From NCBI RefSeq assembly GCF_000377785.1, contig NZ_KB898733.1, positions 3,622 to 67,621 of the forward strand: 64,000 nt of DNA. Direction: 5' to 3'. Shown piece by piece: positions 6,127 through 46,925 of this stretch; the stretch's first letter is position 1; each line of letters opens with the position of its first letter. The stretch comes from Thioalkalivibrio sp. ALJ24 (GTDB lineage: Bacteria > Pseudomonadota > Gammaproteobacteria > Ectothiorhodospirales > Ectothiorhodospiraceae). A program made the position numbers and the translations under genes. The notes below the pieces were generated by a model. The model was not told the origin of the DNA, searched no databases, and saw nothing but the letters and a program-made list of their open reading frames with translations.

Positions 6127-6253
6127 TGCGCGCCATTCTTGTCGCCCCTTAATAAAGTAGGGGTGACCGGATCCCGTGGTGTGGATATGGTGAGACTGCC
6201 TTTCGGTTTGAATCCGGGAGGTTTCCAGGAAACCCATGTAAAGGAGCGAAATC

Positions 6254-6361
6254 ATGGATGTCATTGATGGTCTGCTTGGTACTGTCCTGGGTCTGGCCCA
6301 GCCGGTGCTCGATCTGGTGAGTGAACTTCTGGGTGGCGGTCTGCTGGGCGGACTGCTCTAA
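6254..6361 (+). CDS. 35-residue Leu/Gly-rich hydrophobic peptide, unknown
   Basis: A short gene with a good ribosome site (AAGGAG, 6 nt before ATG) and its own strong terminator 25 bp past the stop. The peptide starts MDVIDGLLGTVLGLAQPV and ends SELLGGGLLGGLL: only Leu, Gly, Val and a few acidic residues, no Lys, Arg or Cys. It could form a hydrophobic helix. It has no double-glycine leader of the usual form. It lies just after the adhesin exporter and converges with the double-glycine peptide gene, whose C-terminus (LTGVLGGVL) has a similar composition. It might be a secreted or membrane-active peptide or an exporter-associated factor. No family is recognised; that it is translated rests on the ribosome site and terminator. 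Confidence 0.55.
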   Translation: MDVIDGLLGTVLGLAQPVLDLVSELLGGGLLGGLL

Positions 6362-6385
6362 GGCCCGGTTGCAGCCGGAAGTACG

Positions 6386-6417
6386 GGCGGCATGCCGGTC
6401 GGTATGTCGCCTTTTTT
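6386..6417 (+). terminator. Rho-independent terminator of the 35-residue peptide gene
   Basis: The arms GGCGGCAT (6386-6393) and ATGTCGCC (6404-6411) pair with one G-U, and CCG/CGG extends the stem inward. Six T follow directly (6412-6417). It lies 24 bp past the stop of the small gene. Confidence 0.85.
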
Positions 6418-6429
6418 GTGTTTGCACAC

Positions 6430-6465
6430 AAAAAAACAGAGGAAGGAGATCCGATCTCCTCCCTC
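6430..6465 (-). terminator. Rho-independent terminator of the double-glycine peptide gene
   Basis: On the minus strand the stem GAGGGAGGAGAT / ATCTCCTTCCTC (one mismatch, 3-nt loop, 6439-6465) is followed by TG and seven T. It faces the plus-strand terminator at 6386-6417, so the two convergent peptide genes are separated by back-to-back terminators. Confidence 0.8.
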
Positions 6466-6497
6466 TGAGCGCTCCCCCGGATGGGTAAGGGGAGCTA

Positions 6498-6530
6498 CTA
6501 TCCTCGAGACAGGGGGGCGCTCGAGGATAG
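6498..6530. repeat. Perfect 11-bp inverted repeat (hairpin) in the 3' region of the minus-strand peptide transcript
   Basis: CTATCCTCGAG at 6498-6508 and CTCGAGGATAG at 6520-6530 pair perfectly across an 11-nt loop. It has no T tract on either strand. It lies between the peptide stop (6593) and its terminator, so it may protect the transcript or be part of a small RNA. Confidence 0.6.
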
Positions 6531-6592
6531 ACCGTGTCTCTCACCCGTGACGTTCACGAATGAGAGCAATGGAGCACGCTTTGCGCTCTTTT

Positions 6593-6775
6593 TCAGAGGA
6601 CTCCGCCGAGCACTCCGGTCAGGCCAATCAGCAGGTCGTTGGTTGCTTCAGCGACCGCGGCGAGGGCCGGCATGGCGGCGTCGATGGTGATGGTGCCCAG
6701 GGCACCGAGATTGATCGTGGCATCGGCGCCACCGACGACGGTTTCCATTTCTGCAGTGTCCAGTTCGCGGAACAT
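6593..6775 (-). CDS. Double-glycine leader peptide precursor (bacteriocin-like or secreted peptide)
   Basis: The start at 6775 follows AAAGGAGG with 5 nt spacing, better than the in-frame start further upstream. The 60-residue product begins MFRELDTAEMETVVGG, a classic double-glycine leader (Glu/Leu/Met/Val pattern, Gly-Gly at 15-16). The predicted mature part is 44 residues, with no Cys or basic residue: a possibly beta-forming start (ATINLGALGTITIDA), an Ala-rich middle, and a hydrophobic tail (LLIGLTGVLGGVL). C39 peptidases cut after such Gly-Gly. A free C39 peptidase and an exporter lie on the opposite strand next door (7001-12522), so I infer this is their substrate. The mature role (bacteriocin, signal or structural peptide) is unknown. 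It has its own promoter and terminator. Confidence 0.85.
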   Translation of the reverse strand: MFRELDTAEMETVVGGADATINLGALGTITIDAAMPALAAVAEATNDLLIGLTGVLGGVL

Positions 6776-6810
6776 GCTTGCCTCCTTTGGCTGTGTCTGC
6801 TCCTTCACAG

Positions 6811-6826
6811 GTCGGCGATCACCGAC
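6811..6826. promoter_or_regulatory. Near-palindromic operator candidate at the peptide transcription start
   Basis: GTCGGCGATCACCGAC differs from its own reverse complement at one base pair and centres on GATC. It sits just downstream of the predicted -10 of the minus-strand peptide promoter, where a repressor would act. It could instead be a short hairpin in the leader. Confidence 0.4.
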
Positions 6827-6833
6827 GGGATCC

Positions 6834-6862
6834 AGTAAATACGGATCAGTTTTTTACGTCAA
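6834..6862 (-). promoter_or_regulatory. Sigma-70 type promoter for the double-glycine peptide gene
   Basis: Read on the minus strand: -35 TTGACG (6857-6862), 17-bp spacer, -10 TTTACT (6834-6839). The expected start is near 6827, giving a leader of about 50 nt before ATG 6775. Confidence 0.6.
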
Positions 6863-7000
6863 CGATCCGCGAGCTGGCAATTGGTGGACGTAGGGAAGTA
6901 TTGGGAACAGGAAGAGCGAAAAGACTAGTAGGAAACGGTACTTCGGTTCCGGACTGTCCGTTTGCATGATGTACGCTCTTTATAGTTATGGAGGCGCACC

Positions 7001-8374
7001 TTGTTTCATGCTCGGTTGAAAGAAGCGACGCGTCAGGCCCTCATGGGGCTGGGATTGAGTCTCGTGACAGCCTCCGTCCCCGTGGCGGGAGCGGACGTGC
7101 TCACCCTTGAAAGCGCAATCCAGATCGCCCTCGACAATAACCCCGAAGTCCATCGCACCCGGGCCGAGCGGGACGTGGCACAGGCCGGGGTGGAACGAGC
7201 CGAGGCGGCCTATCGCCCGCGCGTGAACGTCGGGGCGGGGGTGGACCATCTCACACTCAACAGTGCTTCCCCGGAGGAGGGGCGACCGGAGCTGGAGTTC
7301 GGTGGAGTCTCCTTGACGGTGGACGAACCGGATCGGGACATGTCGGGCTTTACCCGTTACAGCAGTGATGTCTCGGCCGAATACATCCTGTGGGATTTCG
7401 GTCAGCGCCGCAGCGAGAAGGATGCGGCGCTGGGCGACCGAGCGGCGGCACGGGCACGCGAGAACGTGGTGGAAGCGGACACGGTGCTGGAAGTGGCGAA
7501 GGGATACTTCGATCTCCTGCATGCACAGGCACTGCTTGAGGTGCACGAGGAAGCGCTCGCGCGGCAGGAAGAGTCGGCGGCGCTGGCGCGGCGGCTGCAT
7601 CAAGCAGGGCGTGCGACGTCCGGTGATGTGGCGCGGGCCGATGCGGATGTGGCGCGGGCCGAGGTGGACGTTACGGAAACCCGTAACGCGGTGGAGCGGC
7701 ACCGGCTGCGGCTGATCCGGGCAATGGGCGTCCATCCCCACCGCGCCGACTTCGATGTGGATACGCGCAGTCGCATTCGGGATCCGGGCGACTGGAGGCA
7801 GGCGCTGGAAGACACGGACTGGGCCGAGGAGCATCCGGGCGTGGTCGCAGAGGTACGAACGGTGGACGCACGGCGCGCCGAGCTGGAACGGCATCGGCGG
7901 AGTTTCCGCCCGACCTTGCAGGCTGGCGCGACGTACCGGGTGGAGAAGTTTGCCGACGGGGGCACCGCACCCAATTACACGGTCGGTGTGGAGCTTCGCT
8001 GGGAAATGTTTGACGGAGGTGCCCGGGATTCGCGGGTGGCCGAGGCACGGGCCCGGCAGCTGGCAGCGGCGGCGGCGCGTGAACAACACTATAACGAAGT
8101 CGTTACGCAGGCCCGGGAGGCCGAAAACGACCTGGTGGAAGCCGAAGAGCGGATCGAGCTGGCTCAGCGTGCCCTGGCGGCGTCGGAGGAGGATCTGCGC
8201 AACGCCAGGGGTGGCTACCGTGAGGGCGTGCGGAGCTTTTCGGATTTGTCGGATGCGCAGGTGGATGTGGCGGAAGCCCAGGCGCGACTGGAAGGTGCGC
8301 GGTTTGATCGCCAGAAAGCTCTGGCGAGTCTCTACTGGGCGCTCGGGTCTATTCCGACCGACACGCTGCGCTAG
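7001..8374 (+). CDS. TolC family outer membrane protein of the split MacB exporter
   Basis: Start TTG 7001 follows GGAGG with 6 nt spacing. The first ~30 residues are a signal peptide ending near PVAGA. The 457-residue product has the two OEP repeats: LESAIQIALDNNPEVHRTRA at the start, YILWDFGQRRSEKDAALGDR in the middle and YREGVRSFSDLSDAQVDVAE near the end. It would give the outer membrane channel for the adaptor, ATPase and permease encoded just downstream (10 bp to the next start). It is separate in sequence from the other TolC at 1338. First gene of a six-gene operon that reads away from the double-glycine peptide gene. Confidence 0.9.
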   Translation: MFHARLKEATRQALMGLGLSLVTASVPVAGADVLTLESAIQIALDNNPEVHRTRAERDVAQAGVERAEAAYRPRVNVGAGVDHLTLNSASPEEGRPELEFGGVSLTVDEPDRDMSGFTRYSSDVSAEYILWDFGQRRSEKDAALGDRAAARARENVVEADTVLEVAKGYFDLLHAQALLEVHEEALARQEESAALARRLHQAGRATSGDVARADADVARAEVDVTETRNAVERHRLRLIRAMGVHPHRADFDVDTRSRIRDPGDWRQALEDTDWAEEHPGVVAEVRTVDARRAELERHRRSFRPTLQAGATYRVEKFADGGTAPNYTVGVELRWEMFDGGARDSRVAEARARQLAAAAAREQHYNEVVTQAREAENDLVEAEERIELAQRALAASEEDLRNARGGYREGVRSFSDLSDAQVDVAEAQARLEGARFDRQKALASLYWALGSIPTDTLR

Positions 8375-27469: not shown

Positions 27470-27635
27470 GGAAGCGCTGATTAATGGCTCTGCATCCGGC
27501 TCCAATTCCCGCTACCGCATTGTAGGAAGGACATCGGGCCGGGGCGGCCTTTTGGGTGCCCTGTGACCGCCGGTTTTGGCGGTCACAGGGGCGTTGATCG
27601 ATCCTGCGGACGCACTACCCCTGTGGCAGTAGCCC
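27470..27635 (-). mobile_element. Solo IS5-family right-end remnant
   Basis: The reverse complement aligns with 38410-38578, the 3' end of the intact IS5-type element, at roughly 80% identity by eye. It includes the last transposase codons (GLLPQG-stop against GLLTQG-stop), a transcription-terminator-like hairpin (27559-27590) and the terminal repeat. The rest of the IS copy is missing, replaced by the palindrome and McrB gene. Confidence 0.75.
27559..27590. terminator. Hairpin inside the left IS5-end remnant
   Basis: CCCTGTGACCGCC and GGCGGTCACAGGG pair perfectly (13 bp, 6-nt loop). The same hairpin occurs at 38456-38489 in the intact IS with one G-C pair changed to A-T on both arms. Confidence 0.6.
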
Positions 27636-29531
27636 CACTGCTGTCCCACTTAATTCAACGAGATAGCCCGATTCCTCGTTTCGATTCAACGTTTTGTGGT
27701 GAAACCATTGTATCGAAAACGGCTCAGGAATCGGGCTATCTCGTTGAATTAAGTGGGACAGCAGTGAGTCCACCCCTGGGCCCGCTCGTAGGGTCTGGAG
27801 CTTCTGCCGCAGATCGGCGCCGGCTTCATCCCAGTCTCCCGTGAAGAACCAGCGGCCATTGGCGTTCTTGTCGAAGATCAGGGGAGAACGCCGTCCTTCA
27901 ATGGACACCTTGACGGTTTCGGATTCCTGTACGGCGTGGGTCTGCAATGAGTTCCAGCAGGTGGAACGCAGGTTCGGATTCCCGATTTGACCCTGGATCC
28001 GAGCCTTGGCCTGAAAGAACCGGTTTTCGATCAGCTCGTTGACTGTGGCTTCACCCCCAAGGTCGGCAAGGGCCAGGGCCACCGCTTCCCACCACGGGGT
28101 GCCGGCCATCTGTTCGACAAGCCACTCGTCCTCGCTCATGTCTTCGGACCGGCTTTCGTAGTACGGCATCAAATTTTTCTGCAGGTAATACGTCTTGCCG
28201 GTGCCGGGAGGGCCATAGTAAATCGCATTCGTGGCACGCTGGATGGTGATCGCTTCCTGCTGGGGTGAGTCAGGCTCTGCGTCAGCGGTGCTGGGCTTTC
28301 GGAGCTTGCCCCAGAGGGTGCCGACCTGTTTCGCCACGGCGGGCTTGATCTCGATACCCGATTGCTGAGGAGTCCATTTCTGGTCCGAATTGATCTCGGT
28401 CTCCAGGCGGTCCAGTTGAAGAATGTCGTCCGAGTCGGGATCGCGCAGATCCGTCAGTGTGATGTCAACGAATTGGGTTTTCTCCCCTTGTTTGGCGCGC
28501 TCCGGATCCCAGTGCTCGGCTTGATACGGGGCGCTGGCGATATTGCCCTGAGCGATCAACCCGCGCGGCTCCGCACCCAGACGCATGATGTAGGCGGTAT
28601 CCCCTTCGCCAACCTGCCCCGAGGCCGTGCTCCAGCGTTTGGTGACGCTCTCGCCCTTGGCGACCCGGAGCCGATCGTCACGGAATTCGTCCCAGGGCCA
28701 TTTTTGGGGGTTCCAGGCCAGCAGCCAGACCTTCTGCGAAGGCTGCCATCGTTCCTTCCAGGGCGATTCATGAAACGCGAAGGGCTGGCCCGCTTCCTCT
28801 TCGAGCCGTTGGCGCAGCTCGAAGAGGCGATGGTCGATTTCCTCGAGCGACATATTCCTCACGCGGGCGGCGGGCAGCTCCTCAAAGTGCTGCACGATGG
28901 CCCGTTTGTCGCGCCCGGTGGTGAAATTTTCGAAGGTATCCGGGAACAGCAACCAGTTCAGCATATGGCGCAGTTGCCGGAAGCCTTCGCGGGGAACTTC
29001 GGCCAGCCAGCGGGCGAATACCCACGGATCGGAGAGAACATGCCGCCGTCCGTCCCGTGGCTGCTCTTTCATCGCCTTGGCGATGTTGATCAGGTAAGCG
29101 AGTTCACGCCACCGATGCGTATTGAATGCCGTGCCGGCGTGGCCGGCGCCACAAAGGACCTCATCCGTGAGGGCGGGATGATCCGCGGATAATGGCGTGC
29201 CACCCAGTTCCCAGATCTCGAGTACCTGCTGACGCTTGGTTTCCGGCTTGATGTTCGCGGGGAAGAGCAGGAGCACCCAGTTCAGCTCGGCCATCAGCCG
29301 GGTAGCGGTCGGCGGTGCATCGGCCAGTTGGATCTTCAGTTTTTCGGCGTAACTCTCGCTGCCTTCCTGCGGGTTCTGTATGAAGGCGCGGTCAAGGATC
29401 GCCAGATTGTCAGCGGTCCAGAGAGTCTCGTCACCAAAGATGCTCCCGTCATCGATGAGGCAGGTGTCGCGCCACTGCTCCACCGTTTCCAGAAGGGCAG
29501 TCGTATCCGCGTGGGGGGTGTATCGGCTCAT
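27615..29531 (-). pseudogene. Truncated EVE-McrB type restriction GTPase
   Basis: I place the start at ATG 29531 (AAGGAAAAGG before it); 638 residues remain. Residues 1-250 are an N-terminal helical domain. Residues ~267-395 match an EVE/PUA-like domain (KVWLLAWNPQKWPWDEF, DTAYIMRLGAEPRGLIAQGN), which in McrB relatives reads modified bases. A McrB-type AAA+ domain begins with Walker A YYGPPGTGKTYYL (~438-450), followed by an inserted winged-helix-like segment. The frame then runs into the 41-bp palindrome and the IS5 remnant, and stops as GLLPQG. Walker B, the sensor residues and the arginine finger are absent, and no McrC gene is present. Modified-DNA restriction is therefore almost surely lost. 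Confidence 0.82.
27636..27766. repeat. Perfect 41-bp inverted repeat with 49-bp spacer
   Basis: The arm at 27636-27676 (starts CACTGCTGTCCCACTTAATT) is an exact reverse complement of 27726-27766 (ends AAGTGGGACAGCAGTG). It sits exactly between the McrB fragment and the IS5-end remnant, and it is translated as the last codons of the McrB reading frame. No target duplication is evident around it. It could be a small non-autonomous element, or an inverted duplication created when the left IS copy was deleted. Confidence 0.75.
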
Positions 29532-30332
29532 GCCTTTTCCTTGTCTGCGTCCTGTGCGTGTCGCCTCGCTAGCCGGAACAAATGCCTCAGGCCTAGTGAA
29601 CGATCGGTCGAGCTGGAGGCGAAAAAGGTATCGTTGGTCGTGGGGCTTAGGGAAGCACCTCTGATCTGTGCAGCCGGCGGCAGGGTCAAGAAGCGGTTCT
29701 GAGCGCGGTACGCATTGACGGGGCTGCGGGTCATTCATGGTGGCAAGGGTGCTCAAGACGCACTCACGCGCGTCAGCTTCGGAGCCGATCAGGCTGCGGC
29801 GTTGGACGGATATCGCGTTCTCCGCGCGGCCGCTGGGGCTCATCGAGCTGTTCATTCTCCGGTCCGCCGATTCCCGCTCCGGCATCCCAGTCCACATGGC
29901 CACCCACGTTATTGATGGTCAGAGCGATTTCCTTGGGATCCTTTCTCGCTATTGGAGAGTGAGTCGCCAGCGGCCCCACACGATCCTCGGTCGTCAAAAA
30001 GAATCGCTGAATGGGGAGAGTGCCTCGCATGACGGACCCCTCCTATCAAGCACGCATCAACTTGTCCACAAAAGCGGGCCAAACTCACGGGTGACCGATA
30101 GCATCCCGATTGGTAGATTCGCGGTATGTTTGCGTGGCCGTGCTCGATGCATCCAGCGTCGCAGCTAGTCCCCGGTCTCATCACGAGCCGCCAGCTAGTT
30201 TTGGCCGTGGGCAACCAGAAGCGATGGCTAAGGGTGCGTTCTCACTCCTTTGGGCGGCTTTCTCCCGGTCTCTGATATAAGGGGAATGGAGTCGATGCCA
30301 TCACTTACGACACCGACCAACTAATGCTCGAA
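29532..30332. other. 800 bp without a recognisable gene
   Basis: Several short open frames exist on both strands, but none has a family motif, good codon pattern or clear ribosome site. It may be decayed coding DNA between the McrB gene and the low-GC small gene. Confidence 0.4.
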
Positions 30333-30727: not shown

Positions 30728-31369
30728 TTAATCGTTGGTCTGCAAATGTCGCGCAAGTATCCCTAGCTGTTCTACCGCGGACTCGAGGATTGTGGCCTGT
30801 TCGTCCGTTTGAAGCTCACGCGGGACCTTATCGCCATTTCCTCGTAGGGCATACTCGAGGTCTGTGTCTAGTCCTTCAACTTTTATAGGTATGTTTGCAA
30901 GGTCTCGTCCCTTTAGGCGGATTCGGTCGCCCGTCTTAATCTCGATAGAAATCAGAAGCTTTGGGTTCTTGAGCCTTAATGGCTGTGGCATTGGGTCTTC
31001 ATCGGGCCCAGAACGCGATGCTTCGATGGGTCCAGAGGGCTTGATACCATCGAGTTCCATTTGGCCAACGAGCTCATTGGCTTTCTTTTTTTTCTCGTTG
31101 CGTACCTTCCACGATCTCCTTGTCGACTCCCGTGCCTGGTTCTCCAGCAAATCCCGATAGTTGTTCGCGGCTTCTGTGGTCCCGAAGCGCAAAGTGGCTT
31201 CGATGTGATCATCGTTTGTTTCGAAGGTTTGCGATGTGGGCATCTCGTCAAGGCCTAGCTGCTCAATTTTTGATCCTTTTATGAACTCCGTTATCACGCT
31301 CCAAGCTTGTTTCTTATTTTCGAGTGGAAGTTTTATAAGAACTTCGTTTTTCTCGCTCTCTACATCCAT
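30728..31369 (-). CDS. Hypothetical protein, partner of the giant recombinase
   Basis: 213 residues, no signal peptide or span. The middle is highly charged (RSWKVRNEKKKKANELVGQM), and the last ~80 residues look like a compact domain (LLISIEIKTGDRIRLKGRDL). I recognise no family. It begins 14 bp after the stop of the 1557-residue recombinase-like gene on the same strand, so the two probably share a transcript and a function. The lower GC content matches the small gene downstream rather than the recombinase. Confidence 0.6.
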   Translation of the reverse strand: MDVESEKNEVLIKLPLENKKQAWSVITEFIKGSKIEQLGLDEMPTSQTFETNDDHIEATLRFGTTEAANNYRDLLENQARESTRRSWKVRNEKKKKANELVGQMELDGIKPSGPIEASRSGPDEDPMPQPLRLKNPKLLISIEIKTGDRIRLKGRDLANIPIKVEGLDTDLEYALRGNGDKVPRELQTDEQATILESAVEQLGILARHLQTND

Positions 31370-31383
31370 GTCCTGTTACCTTA

Positions 31384-34300
31384 CTAGTCCTCGCTGTCCA
31401 TGGTCCCGTACGTGATCAAGACGAGTGCGACGCATCGGCGCCGGATATCCCCTACGCGCGGTATCTCGAGCGTATCAGGGATGTAGTGCGCAGTATAGCG
31501 TAGGACGACAGAATGGGGTTCCGTCGCGTGTAACAACGCGTGTCCGAGGCTTACCATTCGACCGACCGGCATATGGTCAGCAAGTTCCGTGAGCAGATAT
31601 ATCAGGGCCTCGGTCCGACTTTTTCGGTGTAGGGCTCCGCTACCATGGAGGTAATTAATACCCCAATCCGCATCGACATCCTCGAGTAGGGTAATGTCCG
31701 CTTGGACCATGTGGAGGGGGCGGTCCTGGACGGCAGCGATGTCATCGGCAGTGCGTCCTTCTCGGTGTGCGATAGCCGTAGTCGCCAATAGGCGGATACG
31801 TCCGGGTTGCTCTTTGGTGGTTTGTGATGAGACTACCGATGCTGTGTCATCAGTCTGGTCGCTGGCCGGTCTGAATTCCGTGATCTCGTAATGATCCAGG
31901 AGGCTGGGCAGGTCAAGTCGGCCGACAAGTACCGTATCTACGGGGTTGCCCCTATTTTTTGCCCGGTGCATGGCTTGGCGGAGGCTTGCGGTCGTGACCC
32001 CGACCAATGATGCCAAGGTCTCGGTCGAGGGCGTACGCCAACCTTGATGCACGTCTGTCATCAGCGGGATGGCATGATCGTAGTGCGTGAGTGTCGTCTC
32101 CGGATGCCCGTGTCCCAACTGGCGGGCGTGATGGTATTTTTCGCCGCGTAGGGACCATCGCGGGGGGAACCGGTGTGTTGCTTGATCATACGGCAAATCG
32201 AAGAAGACGTGAGGGTAATGGGCCGGAAGCTGGTGGTAGCTGTGTGCAGTCGCAGCGCTATGGCGAAACCCGTGGGGCCGTATTGGAGGAGTGTCCTTGT
32301 TGAACAGTTTGGCGGCCGTAGTGGCGAACCGGATATTGTATTTCCGAAGCCAATCTGTGGGGTGCTGTCCCGGTGGTGTCGGGCACAGTGACACCTGTTG
32401 AGGTTGATTGGGCGTTTGAGTGCCGTGGATCAATCGAACGGGGTGGGCGATATCTTCTGACTCTTCCTTGGTCAATCGAGAGACGGCCAGGCGCTGAGAT
32501 GCGACGCGTTTCAGGGGCAGATGTACCCGTGGATGGACCGATATGAGCATTCGGTAATGACCAGCGAAGTAATCCGCATAGGTGATGTTGGCCAGTTCGC
32601 GGGTGCGCAATGAAAAGCGGGACTGGATGCGGTAGGCGAGCGCGAGGACGGTGTCGTGGTGGGCGGGTCGGTCGGGTAATCCACTGCAGACGGCCGGGGT
32701 GAATCCATGACGGATGGCAGCGCATTCGGCCGACGTGATTGGGTCTCCGGCTCTAGGACTGGCGGTGGCCGGGGCCTCCTCGATGGCGCGGATTAGGTCC
32801 AAAAAATCGGATGGGAGGAGACGATGGGCGACTCGTCGGGCGATCCACAGTGCGGGACTGGTATTTTCATCTTGGTAGATACGGCGTTCCAGCCACTGCG
32901 TGAGGAGGCTGTCTGTGGTGTCCTTCGCGGTCTCGGACTGGTCCAGTGCGTCCATGGCTTCGGTGATGATATCCGAGTACGCGGTGACATACCCGTAGAT
33001 GGTGGACGGTTTAAGTCGCTTACTTTTTGGGACGTCCAGTTCCGCTTGGAGAGCAATCGCGACGATGTATGGTAGGGAGTCTTCGGGCGAGGACGTAGAG
33101 AGATGTTCTGCGGCCTGCAGGGCAGAGTCGCGTCGACGGGCATCATCGGGCTGTTGGCGCCACCGGTTGAGTGACTTCCGCATTTGGTCATAGAGATGGT
33201 GCGGGGTTTTGCCGAGATATCGCGTGTGGGACGGTAGGTCCCACTCAGGGTCCGTGGCGACGACGCGCATCCCGGTTGCCATGGCAATGAGTCGATCGGG
33301 GCGCGGGCCGCTACATGAAAGTGCGCCTCGCTCCCATGCCGCGCGGTGGCCGGGGGCCGTCATTCGTCTGGCCAGGCTGGACAATCGGCAGATATGCTCG
33401 AGGGCGGCTTCATCGGCGATTAATCCCCTGGCTGCCTGCCGATATTCATTCAGCGGATTCGTGGAGGCTGAACGGTACCAATCGATGGCTTTGCGCAGGA
33501 CGAGTGTCTGGTGCGCGGACAGTAGCTGCGCGCCGTGGATGGTTTGAGCTGGCGGTAACGTGAGGACTGCTGCCGTGGGGAAATGAGGGAGCTGGTAGAG
33601 TTCCCCTGTCTCCAGAATCGCGAGGATGCGATCGACGCTGGTGGTGACTCCCCACAATATCGACAGGATGACGCACGCTACGCCTGAATCCTGCCGCCCT
33701 TTGCGGAGGGCGTCCAATGCTCGGTCCTCGATTTGTTGGGCTAGGCGATAGGCCGCGATGTGCGCAGGGCCGATTTCTGATCGTGGGATGCCATCCGGAC
33801 GAGATTCGGCGTCCCCCGGCCCATCCGCCAGAGACAAAACCCTGCTGATGTTCAATGGGGCGCCCCATTCCCGCCGTCGAGCCGTGCGTACGGAGCCCAT
33901 AAACTCCAGCCCGATGTCATCGAGATAGTGCTCTAGAGCCTCGTCCAGACGGCGGGCGAAATGCCAGGGGGAATCGGGGTCGATATGGGTGTATGGCTCT
34001 CCGTCGACCCGGTGACCCATCTGCTGCGCTATGTCGGCCGAGGAGTGGGCGTCCAGCTCTTCCGCTCGTGTGGCATACCAGTGCCGCAGCTTACGGATAT
34101 CGACCGCACTGCCCAGGTGATCTTGTAGTTTGCTCCGCGTGATGGGGCGGACCCGACGTGCGTCCAGATCAATTGTGAAAAACAGGGGCCCCGAGCCGGT
34201 CAGAGCCCCGTCGATCCGGTCCCGTACCCGGCTGGGCAAGAGGGGGATGGACGTTCGGACGTGTTCCAGAACAGCGAGCATCTGGTCAACTTGTCGGCAC

Positions 34301-36057
34301 AACCGCGTCGGCATCGCGGCGATACGATCCATACCCTCGTGCCTCTTGTCGCAGACGTATGCGACCCCGGGTCCGGCCTCGAATCGGACCATGTTCATCA
34401 GTTTCGTCCCGGGTAAATCGAAGGTGAGCCGATGGGCGGTCGCCGCCGCGAACATCAAAGCTGTATGAATTGCGATCGCATTGAATCTTGTCACAGCGGA
34501 AGGTTGGCGGCTGCGTTTCTGGACGGTCATGGTGGCAAGGCGTATCGCCGACCGAAGGGCCTCCCTGTCTACCATTGCTGAAGCCGATCCCACTCGGATG
34601 TGTCCGTCGGCCTCGACGTCCCCGGTGTCAATGTCGGCGGCGGCCAGCGCGCGGGCGTAAGCCTCCGCCATCGTCGATTGCGCGGGGCAGTAATACGCCA
34701 ACGGAGCTGCGGAACGGTATCCATCCGTCCCAATCAGTAACTGCGCCGACCTGGGATGCCCCGTCGCGTGGTACACCAATGCCGGCATCGTCCGGCGCAA
34801 GCGTTCGAGGGTCAGCCTGGGCACGTGGTTCTTGGCAGCCGTAATGCGGTCACGGAATACAGACTCGGGAAGATCTCGAATATCTCTCCGGCCTGCGATG
34901 TCTTTCAGAACGGCGACGGACTCTTCGGTCTTCTTGCCGAACCTAAGCACGATGTCTTTATCGTGGTTATCACCCTCGTCGCCCGAAGCGGTGATCGCTT
35001 CGAGGCCGGGACCGGGTCTCGATATCCATCCAACCGGCAGTACTTGGATATTGAGTTCGTCTTCAAACTGTGATCGATCGTGTTGAAATTGGTTAGCAAG
35101 TGCGTGAATGATGCTCGCTGCATCGCGTGCGGTTAGGAGCATCAAAAGAAGTACCAAGTCCGCCACCACCTCATCATCCGATCGGCCATCATTGGGCCTC
35201 GTCAGACAGTGATATAGGAACCTTGCTTCGTCCGCGGACAACGAGGCCTCGATATCGGTGGTGAGCTGGCCATCGATGTGCAGACGTGGGTCCGGTCGTC
35301 GGAGCTGTAGGGAAGGGCGCGGGTGCTCTGGCTCGCCGTTAGTCGATTCGGCCGGTGAAGCGTCTGGCAAATCAAGAGCAGCCGTTTTTTCCTGCGCGAG
35401 GCCAGGCGCTTTCGAGGTTGCCTGCGCGGTTTCGGCACTCGCCCGGGAACGCAATAAGCCGCGTAACGTCTCGATGGCGATACGCCTTCCGGGGTTACGG
35501 CGAAAACCGAGTTCTGTGGCAATCTCTTCTGTTGTTTCGGCCGTTAAAGATTCGTCATCCCGTAGGGCCAAACATAGTTTGTCGAAAACAGGCGCCGGTT
35601 CTTCTTGTCGCGCTATCGTATGCGCCAAGCGACGGATTAACTGACCTGAATCCTTGTCTGAGTTGTGACGCAAAGATCGTATGGCGGAGAATAGTACCAC
35701 CCGCATCCCGGCGACGCGGTCTCCAGTGAGATGAGGATGCAGCGCTTCGAAGATATGGGAACAGTCGCCGACACCCCAAAACGGTCGGTTCCTGCGCGGG
35801 GAATCGTAGGGTTGACCATACTGTTCGCAGGCGTCACACAGGGTTTGGAGATCCTTCAGATACCCGGCGGGTAAGCGTCCGCCATAGGTGTGGAGCGAGT
35901 CGCGGATCGATTCGGCAACCTTGGCGCCGTGCGGGATGTAATGGCCGCGAACGAGTGGCACGACCATATGTGGATGGTCGGCCATTTGTGCATACCGGTC
36001 GTCTTCATCCGGTGGATAGCACAGGATTGAGTTGGGACCCCAGCATCTGCGTCTCAT
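31384..36057 (-). CDS. Giant protein with two tyrosine-recombinase-like domains
   Basis: 1557 residues in this frame. Two stretches carry tyrosine recombinase motifs. The C-terminal copy looks complete: Arg in FSLRTRELANITYADYF (~1150), PHGFRHSAATAH (HxxR, ~1260), and ARQLGHGHPETTLTHYDHAI (~1320) with the Tyr. The inner copy has TAHRLTFDLPG (~540), VCDKRHEGMDR (~570), RKLRHWYATRAEE (~650; the first His of HxxR is Arg) and QQMGHRVDGEPYTHID (~685). Residues 1-450 and the last ~200 are unassigned. Single-domain integrases are 300-450 residues, so this is exceptional. It may drive movement of the block. The true N-terminus may lie upstream behind a frameshift (see findings). Confidence 0.75.
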   Translation of the reverse strand: MRRRCWGPNSILCYPPDEDDRYAQMADHPHMVVPLVRGHYIPHGAKVAESIRDSLHTYGGRLPAGYLKDLQTLCDACEQYGQPYDSPRRNRPFWGVGDCSHIFEALHPHLTGDRVAGMRVVLFSAIRSLRHNSDKDSGQLIRRLAHTIARQEEPAPVFDKLCLALRDDESLTAETTEEIATELGFRRNPGRRIAIETLRGLLRSRASAETAQATSKAPGLAQEKTAALDLPDASPAESTNGEPEHPRPSLQLRRPDPRLHIDGQLTTDIEASLSADEARFLYHCLTRPNDGRSDDEVVADLVLLLMLLTARDAASIIHALANQFQHDRSQFEDELNIQVLPVGWISRPGPGLEAITASGDEGDNHDKDIVLRFGKKTEESVAVLKDIAGRRDIRDLPESVFRDRITAAKNHVPRLTLERLRRTMPALVYHATGHPRSAQLLIGTDGYRSAAPLAYYCPAQSTMAEAYARALAAADIDTGDVEADGHIRVGSASAMVDREALRSAIRLATMTVQKRSRQPSAVTRFNAIAIHTALMFAAATAHRLTFDLPGTKLMNMVRFEAGPGVAYVCDKRHEGMDRIAAMPTRLCRQVDQMLAVLEHVRTSIPLLPSRVRDRIDGALTGSGPLFFTIDLDARRVRPITRSKLQDHLGSAVDIRKLRHWYATRAEELDAHSSADIAQQMGHRVDGEPYTHIDPDSPWHFARRLDEALEHYLDDIGLEFMGSVRTARRREWGAPLNISRVLSLADGPGDAESRPDGIPRSEIGPAHIAAYRLAQQIEDRALDALRKGRQDSGVACVILSILWGVTTSVDRILAILETGELYQLPHFPTAAVLTLPPAQTIHGAQLLSAHQTLVLRKAIDWYRSASTNPLNEYRQAARGLIADEAALEHICRLSSLARRMTAPGHRAAWERGALSCSGPRPDRLIAMATGMRVVATDPEWDLPSHTRYLGKTPHHLYDQMRKSLNRWRQQPDDARRRDSALQAAEHLSTSSPEDSLPYIVAIALQAELDVPKSKRLKPSTIYGYVTAYSDIITEAMDALDQSETAKDTTDSLLTQWLERRIYQDENTSPALWIARRVAHRLLPSDFLDLIRAIEEAPATASPRAGDPITSAECAAIRHGFTPAVCSGLPDRPAHHDTVLALAYRIQSRFSLRTRELANITYADYFAGHYRMLISVHPRVHLPLKRVASQRLAVSRLTKEESEDIAHPVRLIHGTQTPNQPQQVSLCPTPPGQHPTDWLRKYNIRFATTAAKLFNKDTPPIRPHGFRHSAATAHSYHQLPAHYPHVFFDLPYDQATHRFPPRWSLRGEKYHHARQLGHGHPETTLTHYDHAIPLMTDVHQGWRTPSTETLASLVGVTTASLRQAMHRAKNRGNPVDTVLVGRLDLPSLLDHYEITEFRPASDQTDDTASVVSSQTTKEQPGRIRLLATTAIAHREGRTADDIAAVQDRPLHMVQADITLLEDVDADWGINYLHGSGALHRKSRTEALIYLLTELADHMPVGRMVSLGHALLHATEPHSVVLRYTAHYIPDTLEIPRVGDIRRRCVALVLITYGTMDSED

Positions 36058-36233
36058 AGCCGATCAGCTCCTGATACGGTGCTTGGCGGACCAGGACTTC
36101 TTGTTGTAAACGCATCCATGCGTATTCCCTCCTTCGTGTACCGTTTAATCACGGTACGGGCGTATGGTGAGTTCTGCAACCCCCTGTTTGTATAAGCTTG
36201 TGTTGGGTGGGCCCTTAGTTAAGCCCGCATCTA

Positions 36234-37406
36234 ATGTCCTTTAACATTAGTTCGTTATAAAATAGAGGCCATGGGTTGATCTCCATTTGAGAGGGGGCTT
36301 TATGGCTCAACGTGGCCGCAAACCGATCAAGCTGGAGCTGTCGGACTCTGAGCGTGCCGAGCTACAGCGGTGGGTGCGGCGCCGCAAAACGCCAGCGGCC
36401 GAGAAGCAACGCGCGGAGCTGATCCTGGACAGTTCCGAAGGTCTTCCGGGGCGAGACATCGCGGCCCGGCACAGGGTGTCGGTACAAACGGTTTCCAAAT
36501 GGCGAAGGCGTTTTGAGCGTTATCGGCTTGCTGGGCTGACGGACGCTCCGCGCTCGGGACGGCCGAGGACGATCGACGACGACAAGGTGGCGCAGGTCAT
36601 TGAAAAGACCCTGAAGGAGAAGCCCAAGGGCGCCACCCACTGGTCCACGACCCTGATGGCGAAGGAAACCGGGCTCAACGCGATGGCCATCAGCCGGATT
36701 TGGCGCGCCTTTGGGCTCAAGCCACATCGGCTCGAGACCTTCAAGCTCTCGACCGATCCGCACTTTATCGACAAGGTCCACGACATCGTTGGGTTGTACA
36801 TGCAGCCGCCCGATCGCGCGCTGGTACTGTGCGTCGACGAAAAGAGCCAGATTCAGGCCCTGAATCGGTCCCAACCGGCCTTGCCGTTAACGTTTGGCCA
36901 TCCTGAGACCCGCACGCATGACTACCTGCGCCATGGCACGACGACCTTGTTCGCGGCACTGGATGTCGCCACCGGCGAAGTCATCGGCAAACTCCAGAGA
37001 AGACATCGCGCGAAGGAGTTCCTGGCGTTTCTCAACGAGATCGACCGTCAGGTTCCGGCCGACCTCGACGTCCATCTCATCATGGACAACTACGGCACCC
37101 ACAAAACCGAAAAAGTGCGTGCGTGGTTCGCGGCGCGGCCGCGTTACCATGTGCACTTCACGCCCACCTCGGCGTCATGGATCAACCTGGTCGAACGCTT
37201 CTTCGCGCTCATCTCGGAACGCTGGATCAAACGCGGTTCGCATCGCAGCACTCGGGAACTCGAGGATTCCATCCGCGAATACCTGGAGACATACAACGAT
37301 GAACCCCGACCATTCATCTGGCGCAAAACCGCCGACCAGATCATCGCGTCCATCGCCCGTGTAAGCGAGCGCCTCAACGATAATGCGAACTAATGTTAAA
37401 GGACAC
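36234..37406 (+). mobile_element. IS630-family insertion sequence
   Basis: 1173 bp. The ends are inverted repeats: left ATGTCCTTTAACATTAGTTC and right, reversed, GTGTCCTTTAACATTAGTTC, identical after the first base. TA flanks both sides (36232-36233, 37407-37408), the usual IS630 target duplication. It carries one transposase gene and is the best-preserved element in the block. Confidence 0.9.
36302..37393 (+). CDS. IS630 family transposase
   Basis: 363 residues from ATG 36302, with GAGAGGGGG before it. An N-terminal HTH ([20 protein letters not shown]) and a second winged segment precede the DDE domain: first Asp in [14 protein letters not shown], second in [14 protein letters not shown], Glu in [16 protein letters not shown]. 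All three catalytic acids are present and the frame is unbroken, so it may be active. Confidence 0.95.
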
Positions 37407-37463
37407 TAGGGAGACACTGATTTAATTCGCTGCCGCTCCCGCCCGGTACGCGGCTCTGGGATA

Positions 37464-43331: not shown

Positions 43332-46300
43332 ATGAGCGAAGAAGAATTTCCGGGGAATCCACGCACCGGCGATCTCTTCGCGGACTTCCTCGCGGAGCCG
43401 CAGGAGGTTGCGGGTGACTGGCCTCCGGCTGATCGCTTTCCCCTGAATGTTGCTGGGCGTTCGGTGCGGCGGAGGGTGGTGGCCGATCTGGCCGATGCCG
43501 ACTCGCCGTTGATCGTGACCGGCTATGCGGGACTCGAGCAGCTCATCCGTCTGGAGGGTGATCTGGGTGAAGCACGACACCTTCGAATCCTGTTCGGCAA
43601 CGAGCCGAGCGCAGGCGAGGGCGGTTGCCGGAGCCTGCATCCGCCGAGCCTGCCGGAGGAAGTCGAACAGTACTGGCTGGATCAGGGCGTTTCTCTGTAC
43701 CTGTCGGCCCGCCTGATCCATTTTCGCGAACGGGTTCGTAACGGCTGCGTCGAAGCACGTTATTGGCCGGGGACTCAACAGCGCCCATTGCACGCCAAGC
43801 TCTACCTGGGGCGCGATGCAGTCACTCTGGGTTCGAGCAATTTCAGCGCGAGTGGCCTGGAAGGTCAGCACGAGGCCAATGCGCGGTTTACCGCGGCCAG
43901 CGAGCCGCGGCGTTATCGGGAATCGGCCGCCCTGGCGGAGCAGTACTGGTCTCTGGGCTGCGATTACACTGAAGGGTTGCTGGCGCTGCTGGATCGGCTC
44001 CTGAGCGTGGTGGGCTGGCGGGACGCTTTGGCTCGCGCCTGCGGTGAGCTGCTCGAAGGAGAATGGGCCCGCGGCTTTTTGCGGCAGATGGACCGTGAGG
44101 CGTTTCAGGCCCTTTGGCCCGCCCAGCGTCAGGGGATCGCGCAGGCCCTGTACCTTTTGGATCGTCAGGGGGCTGTTCTGATCGCTGACGCCACAGGGTC
44201 GGGTAAGACACGCATGGGCGCGCACCTGCTGCGCGCTCAGCAGGCACGGATCCAGGGGACGAAGGGGCTGCCCCGTGCTTTGATGTTGGCGCCCTCGGCC
44301 GTGGTTGAGGAATGGGAGCGAGAGCTCTCCCAAGCCGATTCGGTGGTGGCGGTTTTCTCTCAGGGGCTGCTCAGTCGTGGAGGCCGCAAGTCATGGCGGC
44401 TCGAAGAATCTCGGCGCCGGGCGCGCCTGTTGGCTGTGGATGAGTGCCACAATTTTCACAATCCGCTTTCGCGCAGAACGCGCAGCTTGCATAACCATCT
44501 GGCCGATGACGTGGTCCTGTTCACGGCCACGCCCATCAATCGCAATGTGGATGATCTGATCCGCGTCGCGGATTTGCTGGGAGCCGATAACCTCCGCCAG
44601 AGCACCCTCGATGCGCTGGGCCGGTTGCGGCGGACGGGCCGTCACCTGGCACTGGGCGAAGAAGAAGTGACCCAACTGCGCGAAGAGATCCGGACGTTCA
44701 CCGTGCGGCGAACCAAGCGCATGTTGAACACCCTCATTGATCGCGAACCCGAGAATTATCGGGACCATGTGGGTCGTATCTGCCGATATCCCGAACACCG
44801 GTCGTACAGCTACCTACTGAACGAACCGGAAAGCGACCGCCGCCGTGCTGCTTGGATCCGGCAGCGCCTGACAGAGCTCTACGGCGTGATGCAGATACCG
44901 GCCACCTTGCAGGTTAGCTCGGTGCAGAGGAACAGGGGCCTGAACGAGGATCGTTACCGGGACAACCTGCTGGTGGTAGCGCGCAAGCTGGTCGAGCACC
45001 GGATACTTGCGGCGCTGCGCTCCTCGCGCGCCGCATTGGTGGAGCACCTCTGCGGGACCGAGGTGGCGCGAAGCGAGTTTGGTCTGGGCCGTTACACGAA
45101 GGGGTCGGACACCGGGGATGTGCTCGGGCGACTCGCCGCGCCCGGCCCTCCTCCCAAAAACAAATTGACGGTACCGCTTCCGGAGTGGCTTACGGAACCG
45201 GACGGCTGGAACGCCGCTCACGCGCATGACCACCGGATCCTCTCCGAAGTCCTGGAGGAGGTTCGCCGGATGAGCCCGGCGCGCGAGCAGGCCAAGGCAG
45301 CCCACCTTGCGAGCCTGGCCAAACGTCACGAACGTGTCCTGGCTTTCGATAGCTGGCTGATCACGATCGCGGTGCTGCGAGATGAGTTGGAACGTCTGGT
45401 ACCAGGTCTGGAGATACTGCAGGCCACGGGCGGAGATGGTCGGGACCGTCAGGCCGTGCTTCGTGCTTTCCGGCCGGGGGAGGAGCAGGGTGCCGGTGTC
45501 GCGCTGTGTTCGGACAGCCTGTCTGAAGGGGTCAACCTGCAGGCAGCCTCGGCGTTGGTCCATCTCGACATGCCATCGGTCATCCGTACGGCCGAACAGC
45601 GCACGGGTCGGGTGGACCGGCTGGACAGCCCTCATGCTGAGGTGGAGGTCTGGTGGCCAAGAGACGCAGAGGAGTTCTCGCTGGGGGCGGATTCGCGTTT
45701 CAAGGAACGGGTAGAGGCAGTCACTGATCTTCTCGGTACAAACCTTCCGCTACCGGACGAGCTTCGGAACACGGCACGAATGTCCGTGGATGCCGATACC
45801 CTGGTTTCCGAATATGAGCGCGATGCTCGATCGGCCGACGAAGCCGAGCCCGAGGACGCGTTTGCGGGTGTTCGGGGGCTGGTCGAGGGAGAGGCCGCAT
45901 TAGTTGGCCCGGATATCTATGAGTATTACCGTCAGAGATCGGTCAAAGTTCTGTCCCGGGTTAGCGTGGTGGTTAGCGAGTCGACGTGGGCCTTCTTTTG
46001 CCTCGCCGGGACAGCGGAAAGATCGCCACGGTGGTTCTTTTTCTCCGACCCCGACGCCGAACCGCTGGCTGCGCTGGACAAGGTTTCTTTGGAACTCCGC
46101 CGGCGGCTATCGGAGGATCCGCCCATCGGAGAGATAGACGAACCGGCCTCGCAGTGGCTGAAACACTTTGCCCGAAGGCTGCCCGAGGCCGAGCGTGCTC
46201 AGTTACCACTGCGCAAGCAGCGGGCCCTGCAGGAAATGAAGCGCGTCGTTGATGGCTTGTGCCACCATGCGGCGAGCCAGCAGGCTCAAGAGCGTCTGGA

Positions 46301-46595
46301 TAGCTATCTCCGACTGCGCGAGCTGTTTGACCATAGCGTCGATGACCCGGAGCAAAGTGAGCCAGACTGGGAAGCCGTCGCGCATAGATGGCTGGATCTG
46401 ATACGGCCGTACTGGTACCAGCGACTGACACAGGACCGACGTGCGCTGCTACGGCTCCGGGATCTCCGCCAAGATCTGATCGAGGCCGAACCGGAGTTCG
46501 GTCCGCAGGTATTGGAAGCTTTTTCGACTCTGCCATTGCACAACGCTGCGGAGCATCGAGTCGTCGCCGCGATCCTCGGCGTTCCTGACCGGTAG
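43332..46595 (+). CDS. PLD-domain SNF2-type helicase, candidate defence protein
   Basis: 1087 residues. An N-terminal phospholipase D-like domain carries one HKD motif (HAKLYLGRD, His154/Lys156/Asp162, then GSSNFSASGL). A superfamily 2 helicase follows: Walker A ADATGSGKTRMG (~288), motif II VDECHNF (~370), motif III-like LFTATPINRN, motif VI EQRTGRVDRLD (~757). The C-terminal ~250 residues are unassigned. PLD nucleases joined to SNF2 or DEAD helicases occur in bacterial immunity systems (for example DISARM and Mokosh components); this N-terminal PLD order differs from the Mokosh type II fusion as I know it. No partner genes lie beside it. An RNA/DNA repair role is an alternative. Confidence 0.85.
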   Translation: MSEEEFPGNPRTGDLFADFLAEPQEVAGDWPPADRFPLNVAGRSVRRRVVADLADADSPLIVTGYAGLEQLIRLEGDLGEARHLRILFGNEPSAGEGGCRSLHPPSLPEEVEQYWLDQGVSLYLSARLIHFRERVRNGCVEARYWPGTQQRPLHAKLYLGRDAVTLGSSNFSASGLEGQHEANARFTAASEPRRYRESAALAEQYWSLGCDYTEGLLALLDRLLSVVGWRDALARACGELLEGEWARGFLRQMDREAFQALWPAQRQGIAQALYLLDRQGAVLIADATGSGKTRMGAHLLRAQQARIQGTKGLPRALMLAPSAVVEEWERELSQADSVVAVFSQGLLSRGGRKSWRLEESRRRARLLAVDECHNFHNPLSRRTRSLHNHLADDVVLFTATPINRNVDDLIRVADLLGADNLRQSTLDALGRLRRTGRHLALGEEEVTQLREEIRTFTVRRTKRMLNTLIDREPENYRDHVGRICRYPEHRSYSYLLNEPESDRRRAAWIRQRLTELYGVMQIPATLQVSSVQRNRGLNEDRYRDNLLVVARKLVEHRILAALRSSRAALVEHLCGTEVARSEFGLGRYTKGSDTGDVLGRLAAPGPPPKNKLTVPLPEWLTEPDGWNAAHAHDHRILSEVLEEVRRMSPAREQAKAAHLASLAKRHERVLAFDSWLITIAVLRDELERLVPGLEILQATGGDGRDRQAVLRAFRPGEEQGAGVALCSDSLSEGVNLQAASALVHLDMPSVIRTAEQRTGRVDRLDSPHAEVEVWWPRDAEEFSLGADSRFKERVEAVTDLLGTNLPLPDELRNTARMSVDADTLVSEYERDARSADEAEPEDAFAGVRGLVEGEAALVGPDIYEYYRQRSVKVLSRVSVVVSESTWAFFCLAGTAERSPRWFFFSDPDAEPLAALDKVSLELRRRLSEDPPIGEIDEPASQWLKHFARRLPEAERAQLPLRKQRALQEMKRVVDGLCHHAASQQAQERLDSYLRLRELFDHSVDDPEQSEPDWEAVAHRWLDLIRPYWYQRLTQDRRALLRLRDLRQDLIEAEPEFGPQVLEAFSTLPLHNAAEHRVVAAILGVPDR

Positions 46596-46897
46596 GGCCA
46601 GCGGATCTCGATCCACTGGGAACGAAGCGGGCAGGAGGGCGAGGTTTGCCGGGCAGGCAGGTGGAGCCAGGGAGTCGCGGCGCCGTACGGGCCTGTGACG
46701 AACGGCCCGCTCATTGAGTAGGTAGGCGTCCGGTGATGACACCGCATTGATGGACTATTTGAGGTAAACCGTTATATCCTGTGCAATGCTTTCAATCGAC
46801 AAAACAGTAACTTAGACGGTCCCTGGAAAGAATTAAGGCGTCCTGATACCTGCTAAGCCCTATCGCAGACAGTGGGCTTATTCTGTCTACGAACCAG
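46596..46897. other. AT-richer spacer upstream of the tRNA fragment
   Basis: No gene seen. 46740-46890 is lower in GC than its surroundings. AGACAG (46867-46872) and CTGTCT (46882-46887) form an inverted pair just before the tRNA fragment, which could be recombinase arm sites or chance. Confidence 0.35.
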
Positions 46898-46925
46898 GGA
46901 GGTTCGAATCCTCCCGGGCGCGCCA
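46898..46925 (+). other. 3' fragment of a tRNA-Arg gene (attachment-site candidate)
   Basis: T-arm GGAGG-TTCGAAT-CCTCC, acceptor 3' strand CGGGCGC, discriminator G and encoded CCA are intact. The matching 5' part (GCGCCCG and D-arm) is not present upstream or elsewhere in the window. A 5' acceptor GCGCCCG and G discriminator are typical of bacterial tRNA-Arg genes. A natural terminator follows. Such 3' fragments mark one end of elements integrated into tRNA genes. Confidence 0.75.

Follow-up and report, generated by a model that had tools for sequence, protein, structure and literature searches.

Two tyrosine-recombinase-like domains in one giant protein of Thioalkalivibrio sp. ALJ24, and its split and fused relatives

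The window analysed here is a stretch of 64,000 nucleotides from the draft genome (2.81 Mb) of Thioalkalivibrio sp. ALJ24. Near its centre lies a giant gene, a single ATG-started open reading frame of 1557 codons that contains no internal stop. Its G+C content is 59.6%, compared with 49.1% for the gene that follows it and 64.8% for the window as a whole. The features of the locus are as follows.

27615 to 29903, minus strand: 762-aa protein downstream of the giant gene, with matches to EVE (E 0.005) and AAA_19 (E 0.098), neither of which reaches its curated cut-off; candidate cargo
30728 to 31369, minus strand: 213-aa gene downstream of the giant gene; a 220-aa counterpart lies beside the giant in three genomes of the same genus
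31384 to 36057, minus strand: 1557-aa two-domain tyrosine-recombinase-like protein, fused A-B
32023 to 32640, minus strand: second (B-type) recombinase core, approximately residues 1140 to 1345, with the complete R/K/H/R/H/Y set
33958 to 34470, minus strand: first (A-type) recombinase-like core, approximately residues 530 to 700, with R/K/R/H kept and a nucleophile that is not conserved across the family
36231 to 37409, plus strand: insertion with inverted repeats and a DDE_3 match, which we take to be IS630-like, 174 bp ahead of the giant start codon
37464 to 38432, plus strand: second transposase gene (DDE_Tnp_1 and DUF772), presumably IS5-like
43332 to 46595, plus strand: 1087-aa helicase of SNF2/PLD type that partly matches defence helicases of the DpdE/DrmD type; candidate cargo
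46887 to 46925, plus strand: tRNA-Arg(acg), 3′ part only, starting at the anticodon loop; probably marks the edge of an island

The initial annotation had proposed that two sets of tyrosine-recombinase motifs sit in one chain, and this is borne out by the intact frame and by motif columns that are conserved across the family. The inner set comprises R543, D570-K571, R578, R655-x-x-R658-H659, G681-H682 and Y689, and the C-terminal set R1151, K1183, R1189, H1262-x-x-R1265-H1266, G1315-H1316 and Y1326. The two sets are not a product of chance, since most motif columns are invariant or nearly so in the 18 (inner) and 20 (C-terminal) aligned sequences, the exceptions being the inner box-II His column and the inner Tyr column. 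The C-terminal set is complete, as originally described, with R1151, K1183, H1262, R1265, H1316 and Y1326 all present, so that the second domain carries the R, K, H-x-x-R, H and nucleophilic Y that define a tyrosine recombinase. Likewise, the first His of the inner HxxR is indeed Arg in the window protein, while relatives in the same genus have His at this position. The tyrosine is found 7 residues past the box-III His in the first domain of the window and same-genus proteins and 10 residues past it in the second domain. Family libraries return little for the window giant: in Pfam, PF00589 alone (residues 1246 to 1278, E 0.64), in NCBIfam a single match to the inner domain (E 0.45) and in PADLOC no match.

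Genomes with a match to the giant at E ≤ 0.001, some of these matches being weak or partial, numbered 5 of 192 relatives, 6 of 369 in the class, 6 of 30 in the genus and 6 of 398 in the phylum, the ALJ24 genome being counted each time. The giants of genomes G001 and G020 are 35–36% identical to the window protein over nearly the whole length, whereas that of G022 matches from residue 95 onwards and its gene is in two pieces at contig ends. Three of the relatives are Thioalkalivibrio records. The giant of G061 (1767 aa) is 27% identical, G216 encodes one of 1762 aa, and more distant giants occur in G521 (1763 aa) and twice in G639 (1862 and 1941 aa); weak matches in G388, G496 and G579 were left out of the family. 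When GTDB contigs were searched with the window protein alone no relative was recovered, and a three-row alignment recovered the three same-genus loci only. By tblastn the window protein gave no match in the plasmid (E 1e-3) or phage (E 1e-2) collections; the giant of locus L045 had no match in the plasmid collection, an A protein none in the phage collection, and scans of IMG/VR returned no relative.

Other matches covered the first half of the giant only. These are proteins of 821–888 aa, directly followed by proteins of 1053–1090 aa and preceded by a gene of 165–186 aa, at loci in G029 (and, by a shared block, G021), in G504 and in the ALJ24 genome itself. The ALJ24 locus (L048, G000:C13:6708-12983) is a second, split copy of the module, with proteins of 186, 837 and 1090 aa followed by one of 1137 aa. 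A plasmid search with two B proteins recovered the same order of small gene (137–209 aa), A and B, with most of the genes overlapping or lying close together, in Vibrio cyclitrophicus, Dinoroseobacter, Ketogulonicigenium, six Acinetobacter plasmids and one Aeromonas record; the exceptions are L050 and L029, in which the B protein is preceded only by a protein of 307 and 415 aa, respectively. In other Acinetobacter plasmids the form is fused, with one gene of 1682–1683 aa behind a small gene of approximately 220–225 aa. This fused giant was matched over at least 80% of its length in 42 of 72,556 plasmid records, all Acinetobacter: 27 in a single aligned piece and 15 split into between two and eight, with an insertion sequence lying inside several of these 15. 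Judged from sequence, the giant corresponds to two genes, A (725–888 aa) and B (947–1128 aa), that are adjacent behind a small gene in many Proteobacteria.

This correspondence was examined by all-against-all BLASTP (E ≤ 1e-3) of 10 giants, 9 A, 11 B and 4 Gamma-Mobile-Trio (GMT) proteins. The N-terminal halves of giants were matched by six of the nine A proteins and the C-terminal halves by all eleven B proteins, and within this set no A protein matched any B protein and no GMT protein matched A or B. The direct link of the window giant to the A family is through A_L043 (E 2e-6), and its C-terminal half is linked to B proteins through L013 and L027 only. In a tree of the B region the fused forms do not make up one clade, yet a single clade is not rejected (AU p 0.43).

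Residue counts distinguish the two domains. They were made on an alignment of 18 rows for A proteins and first domains and of 20 rows for B proteins and second domains, with near-copies (L018, L019 and L047, and L055, which is a near-copy of L052), the giants of L078-L083, the trios of L077 and L088-L090 and the short first proteins of L029 and L050 set aside. In the B family, R, E, K, R, the box-II R and the Tyr are present in 20 of 20 rows, with the box-II His in 15, the His that follows in 19 and the box-III His in 19. In the A family, all 18 rows keep the first Arg, the Lys and the Arg that follows it, the Arg of box II and the His of box III, but the first position of box II is N in 13 rows, R in two, P in two and H in one (the Asn being invariant in an eight-row alignment of separate A proteins), and the nucleophile column holds F in six, Y in five, W in four, L in two and H in one. 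The first domain therefore has no conserved nucleophilic tyrosine, although the window protein is among the five rows that carry one. The A half shows a dN/dS of 0.29–0.33 in all four Acinetobacter pairs, which are not independent since sequences are shared between pairs; the second half of Acinetobacter pairs gives 0.13–0.77, with few changes. Comparison of L046 with L047 gives 0.15 for A and 0.18 for B. Both halves thus appear to be under purifying selection in relatives and, from the conservation counts and dN/dS together, the second domain looks active throughout, whereas the first looks like a maintained pseudo-recombinase. As the window and same-genus rows carry Tyr in the first-domain column, the first domain may have activity there.

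Evidence on the fold is likewise stronger for the second domain. The B profile (11 proteins) matched XerA best among solved structures (5hxy, E 1.7e-6), other recombinases also being recovered, whereas the A profile found no solved structure better than E 1.5. Alignment to ordinary integrases with hhalign was good for the B profile (97%) and weak for the A profile (39%), and the two profiles did not align with each other by hhalign (probability 7% or less). PF00589 matched a stand-alone B protein (L043, E 4.9e-12) over the curated cut-off, the second domain of L027 (residues 1329 to 1470, E 3.2e-5) under it and the first domain of L045 (residues 725 to 787, E 3.9e-6) slightly over it; at E ≤ 0.1 only two of eight A members were matched. 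AlphaFold models of the two domains, four close rows for each, had mean pLDDT values of 34.1 and 42.6, too low to show a fold. For the first domain, the order of its motifs, their invariance and the weak family matches suggest a recombinase fold.

The frame of the 213-aa gene starts 14 bp past the end of the giant frame, and the initial annotation saw in it a likely partner. In favour of this, a 220-aa counterpart lies behind the giant in three same-genus relatives, the one pair that was compared showing 24% identity (E 3e-10). Against it, the 268-aa gene behind the G061 giant, which is convergent with the giant, has no similarity to the 213-aa protein. The giant of G216 has a neighbour of 234 aa, and in the Acinetobacter giants and split trios a small gene, which may or may not be related to the 213-aa gene, is located upstream. 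Behind the giant of G020 (L008 340-1345), and also of G001, two similar small frames occur in tandem, the second of which resembles, by eye, the C-terminal part of the 220-aa protein. A weak match to the ParB N-terminal domain (Pfam E 0.02) is seen in the small gene that belongs to the G504 split trio (L043 10771-11313).

Module ends were examined in nine Acinetobacter loci out of the 42 records. Pairwise BLASTN revealed a common left limit approximately 818 bp before the giant gene and 150 bp before the small gene, outside which the DNA is mostly unlike between loci. The left flank is common to L052 and L080, so that these two are not independent, and in L055, where an insertion sequence lies inside the module, the left limit is shifted outward. 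One module-free plasmid record has 1963 bp of flank (98.7%) in common with an occupied one, a shared stretch that stops 7 bp or less from the left end. The right side of the module fades at differing points, and BLASTN between 42 kb of an occupied plasmid and 12 kb of a module-free one detected no point at which the flank picks up again. The look at conserved ends around homologues, proposed earlier, gave an exact left end in nine loci; no right end, target duplication, excised circle or restored empty site was found. When the left end was compared with 42 kb of one plasmid, the best inverted copy agreed at no more than 23 of 38 letters and the second-best direct copy at 24. A 23-nt piece of the left end occurs in 9 of 12 plasmid records, two of which hold two copies in the same orientation.

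These direct copies (L081, approximately 4985-7230, and NZ_CP026423.1, 7820-10905) are spaced by 2.2 and 3.1 kb, as if DNA had been inserted at the module end. In one of the two records the extra copy spans approximately 125 bp; in the other, a piece of the small gene is also present ahead of the left end, like a partial tandem copy.

In the genus of the window, a 7.9-kb block holding a split trio is common to L046 and L047 (97% alike) and is bordered by differing DNA on both sides. The left limit of this block in L047 falls within a tRNA-like sequence (tRNA-Val by eye). A tRNA motif scan of 25 loci placed one motif in L047, and a tRNA 3′ part in each of L043 and L054, no more than 250 bp ahead of the small gene. 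In three same-genus genomes the giant occupies the same place, and therefore no movement is seen there.

Taken with the residue counts, we consider that the giant drives the recombination of a DNA module that is mobile or carried on an island, with an active B half and a pseudo-recombinase A half working together, and give this reading a probability of roughly two in three. The setting of the window gene bears on it. The window contains no ordinary integrase among 19 Pfam-scanned frames, nor among frames of at least 80 aa searched with an integrase profile, and between the tRNA part and the giant lie the helicase, a subtilase and the two transposase genes. On another contig of the same genome (L084, G000:C5:6303-8415), an intact tRNA-Arg(acg) is accompanied by an excisionase-like gene and a 413-aa integrase related to those of L013, L042, L043 and L054, and a type I methyltransferase is found on that contig too. 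Window region and contig C5 may well be one island split by assembly. An island of this kind could be moved by the integrase and excisionase beside the tRNA at its other end, leaving the giant as a passenger with a role in, for example, regulation or defence. The tRNA 3′ part that closes the window island matches the intact tRNA on C5, and related integrases lie in the stretches examined for the four loci just named (near the G061 giant, for one, both a related integrase and a tRNA-Arg(acg) occur); the integrase profile was built from these four, so only the integrase on C5 is an independent find. On an A. schindleri plasmid, an annotated ordinary integrase (L100 22606-23805) also follows the fused giant at a distance of about 14 kb, and defence-like genes near giants would suit a passenger. 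However, at E 1e-6 the integrase profile found none in the stretches examined of L046/L047 and of Acinetobacter L052, L055-L057, L059 and L077-L083, yet L046/L047 and nine fused loci have sharp module boundaries, and the B half keeps its Arg, Lys, Arg and Tyr in every one of 20 sequences, so that we regard the passenger explanation as unlikely.

The genes that accompany the module are varied. The 762-aa EVE/AAA protein of the window has no PADLOC match. The SNF2/PLD helicase is also encoded near the giant in G001 and G022, at 71% DNA identity. As a raw tally from 19 annotated plasmid loci, three (L057, L081 and L088) have BREX genes after the module, L077 has a type I restriction gene before it and L089 has the PADLOC candidate PDC-S37 after it. 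Beside the G061 giant (L013 16584-18631) are arrays of short, near-identical repeats (ASMRPWRNAKEF or NSLALRQGLIEA in frame) that by eye look like a CRISPR array.

On several Acinetobacter plasmids, rep or par genes are found at most a few kb away from the module, and a tyrosine recombinase of unstated role, which may or may not be the giant, is listed as a core gene in a report on GR13 plasmids (PMC9455709). Both observations would accord with an enzyme of plasmid or island maintenance, acting in the resolution of dimers or cointegrates rather than in transposition. Such a role seems improbable to us, since the left end is precise while the flanks mostly differ between plasmids, and other genomes have copies on long contigs, for example one of 5.4 Mb in G639.

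The state of the window copy is a separate matter. The IS630-like element ahead of its start codon may have severed the giant from its left end and promoter, leaving a dead relic, an outcome compatible with a recombination engine in the relatives. The second transposase gene behind that element points the same way, as do the two pieces of the G022 gene, one of which lies by an IS3-like fragment, but the frame of 1557 codons is intact and all catalytic residues of the second domain are present. We judge a relic possible but less likely than not.

The Gamma-Mobile-Trio (GmtY, GmtZ and GmtX) resembles the split trio in combining two recombinase-type proteins with a small one. Unlike A and B, GmtY has 438 and 491 aa and GmtZ 910 and 836 aa at the two loci compared. 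In the comparison with the gamma-mobile-trio recombinase suggested at the outset, GMT proteins gave no BLASTP match to A or B at E 1e-3 and weak profile similarity only (best E 0.04 in a search of 1000, GmtY to B). The GmtY model NF040693 has a cut-off of 340 bits, and its best match in the ALJ24 genome reached 25.6 bits at another locus; we therefore do not count the giant as a GMT. GMT elements are described as rich in defence cargo in the accessible parts of two reports (PMC12039261; PMC12715929).

Strand-biased circularizing integrative elements (SEs) encode IntA, Tfp, IntB and Srap and, in what is accessible of their descriptions, a recombinase-fold protein that has lost its catalytic residues (Tfp) stands beside IntB, a large and active recombinase, and a small protein, much as A adjoins B (PMC10214605; PMC9345347). 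In contrast to the module described here, the SE operon has an extra, ordinary IntA and, according to the same partial sources, Tfp is said to be without the RHRY set, whereas A keeps R/K/R/H (PMC10214605; PMC9345347); A and B are moreover fused in the window protein. We found no profile similarity of A or B to Tfp or IntB of SE-6945. SEs have imperfect inverted repeats of 13–19 bp at both ends and form a strand-biased circle without an empty site; of the present module the left end is known, in Acinetobacter, and 42 kb of one plasmid showed no clear inverted copy of it. Membership was rejected on gene content, as there is no intA-tfp-intB operon with a separate IntA.

GInt islands (ginABCD), compared by description only, likewise place several recombinase-like proteins and a small protein at one island end with variable cargo, and the available portion of their report describes GinC as being without one catalytic Arg (PMC5385486). 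There, ginA, ginB and ginC are separate genes with no fusion (PMC5385486), and three integrase genes plus ginD differ from two recombinase-like units in one gene. Tn554 and RIT elements have adjacent recombinase genes, with a long N-terminal extension on one of them in Tn554 relatives, as far as the accessible text describes (PMC3414803; PMC10214605). Both Tn554 recombinases carry RHRY by that description, on which our comparison rests (PMC3414803; PMC10214605), and a complete TnpA and TnpB plus TnpC do not correspond to a first domain without a conserved nucleophile. The statement in the initial annotation that RIT elements use separate genes agrees with the accessible description, our only basis of comparison, of three adjacent recombinase genes (PMC3414803), in contrast to the single gene here. 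BIM elements were also considered; their second protein is described there as SMC-like (PMC3414803).

Our best reading places the giant among the known multi-recombinase mobile modules (SE, GInt, GMT, Tn554), with the active and inactive proteins fused. The C-terminal, B-type half would be an active tyrosine recombinase that cuts and rejoins strands at the module end. The N-terminal, A-type half would be a pseudo-recombinase that, by its motifs, retains the fold together with the Arg, Lys, Arg and His that bind phosphate but has no conserved nucleophile; its most likely role is to bind or shape the half-site of the partner and to hold or activate the B domain. The earlier suggestion of one active and one structural unit is supported in this sense, with a full active site in the second domain and a first domain that is probably structural. 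Such an active-inactive pair would replace the active subunits of ordinary systems, and fusion would lock A and B at a one-to-one ratio. If so, we infer that the chain would bind DNA and exchange strands, that the module may be mobile at present and that the window copy may still work.

Flp protomers share an active site in trans. By analogy, we tentatively raise the less probable idea of a distinct class of mobile element, the engine of which is an obligate pair of active and pseudo-recombinase, encoded by neighbouring genes or fused, where the pseudo domain might lend its phosphate pocket (R, K, R, H) to the Tyr of B, or might block the second strand exchange and so leave a one-strand reaction at the left end.

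Several recombinase-like proteins acting together are already known from SE, GInt, GMT and Tn554 elements, and a defective one from SE and GInt. What is new, as far as the open-access literature shows, is the fused active-plus-pseudo chain and the wide family of split and fused forms; in that literature, which leaves most subscription papers and bioRxiv preprints outside its scope, we found no chain with two tyrosine-recombinase domains like the giant and no A-B trio. If our reading is correct, one family would supply natural split and fused pairs of active and inactive recombinases, and, as both versions occur in one family, the role of the 'dead' recombinases in SE, GInt and like elements could be tested with one protein. 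BREX, restriction and other defence genes would also gain one more recombinase module as a carrier, including on Acinetobacter plasmids.
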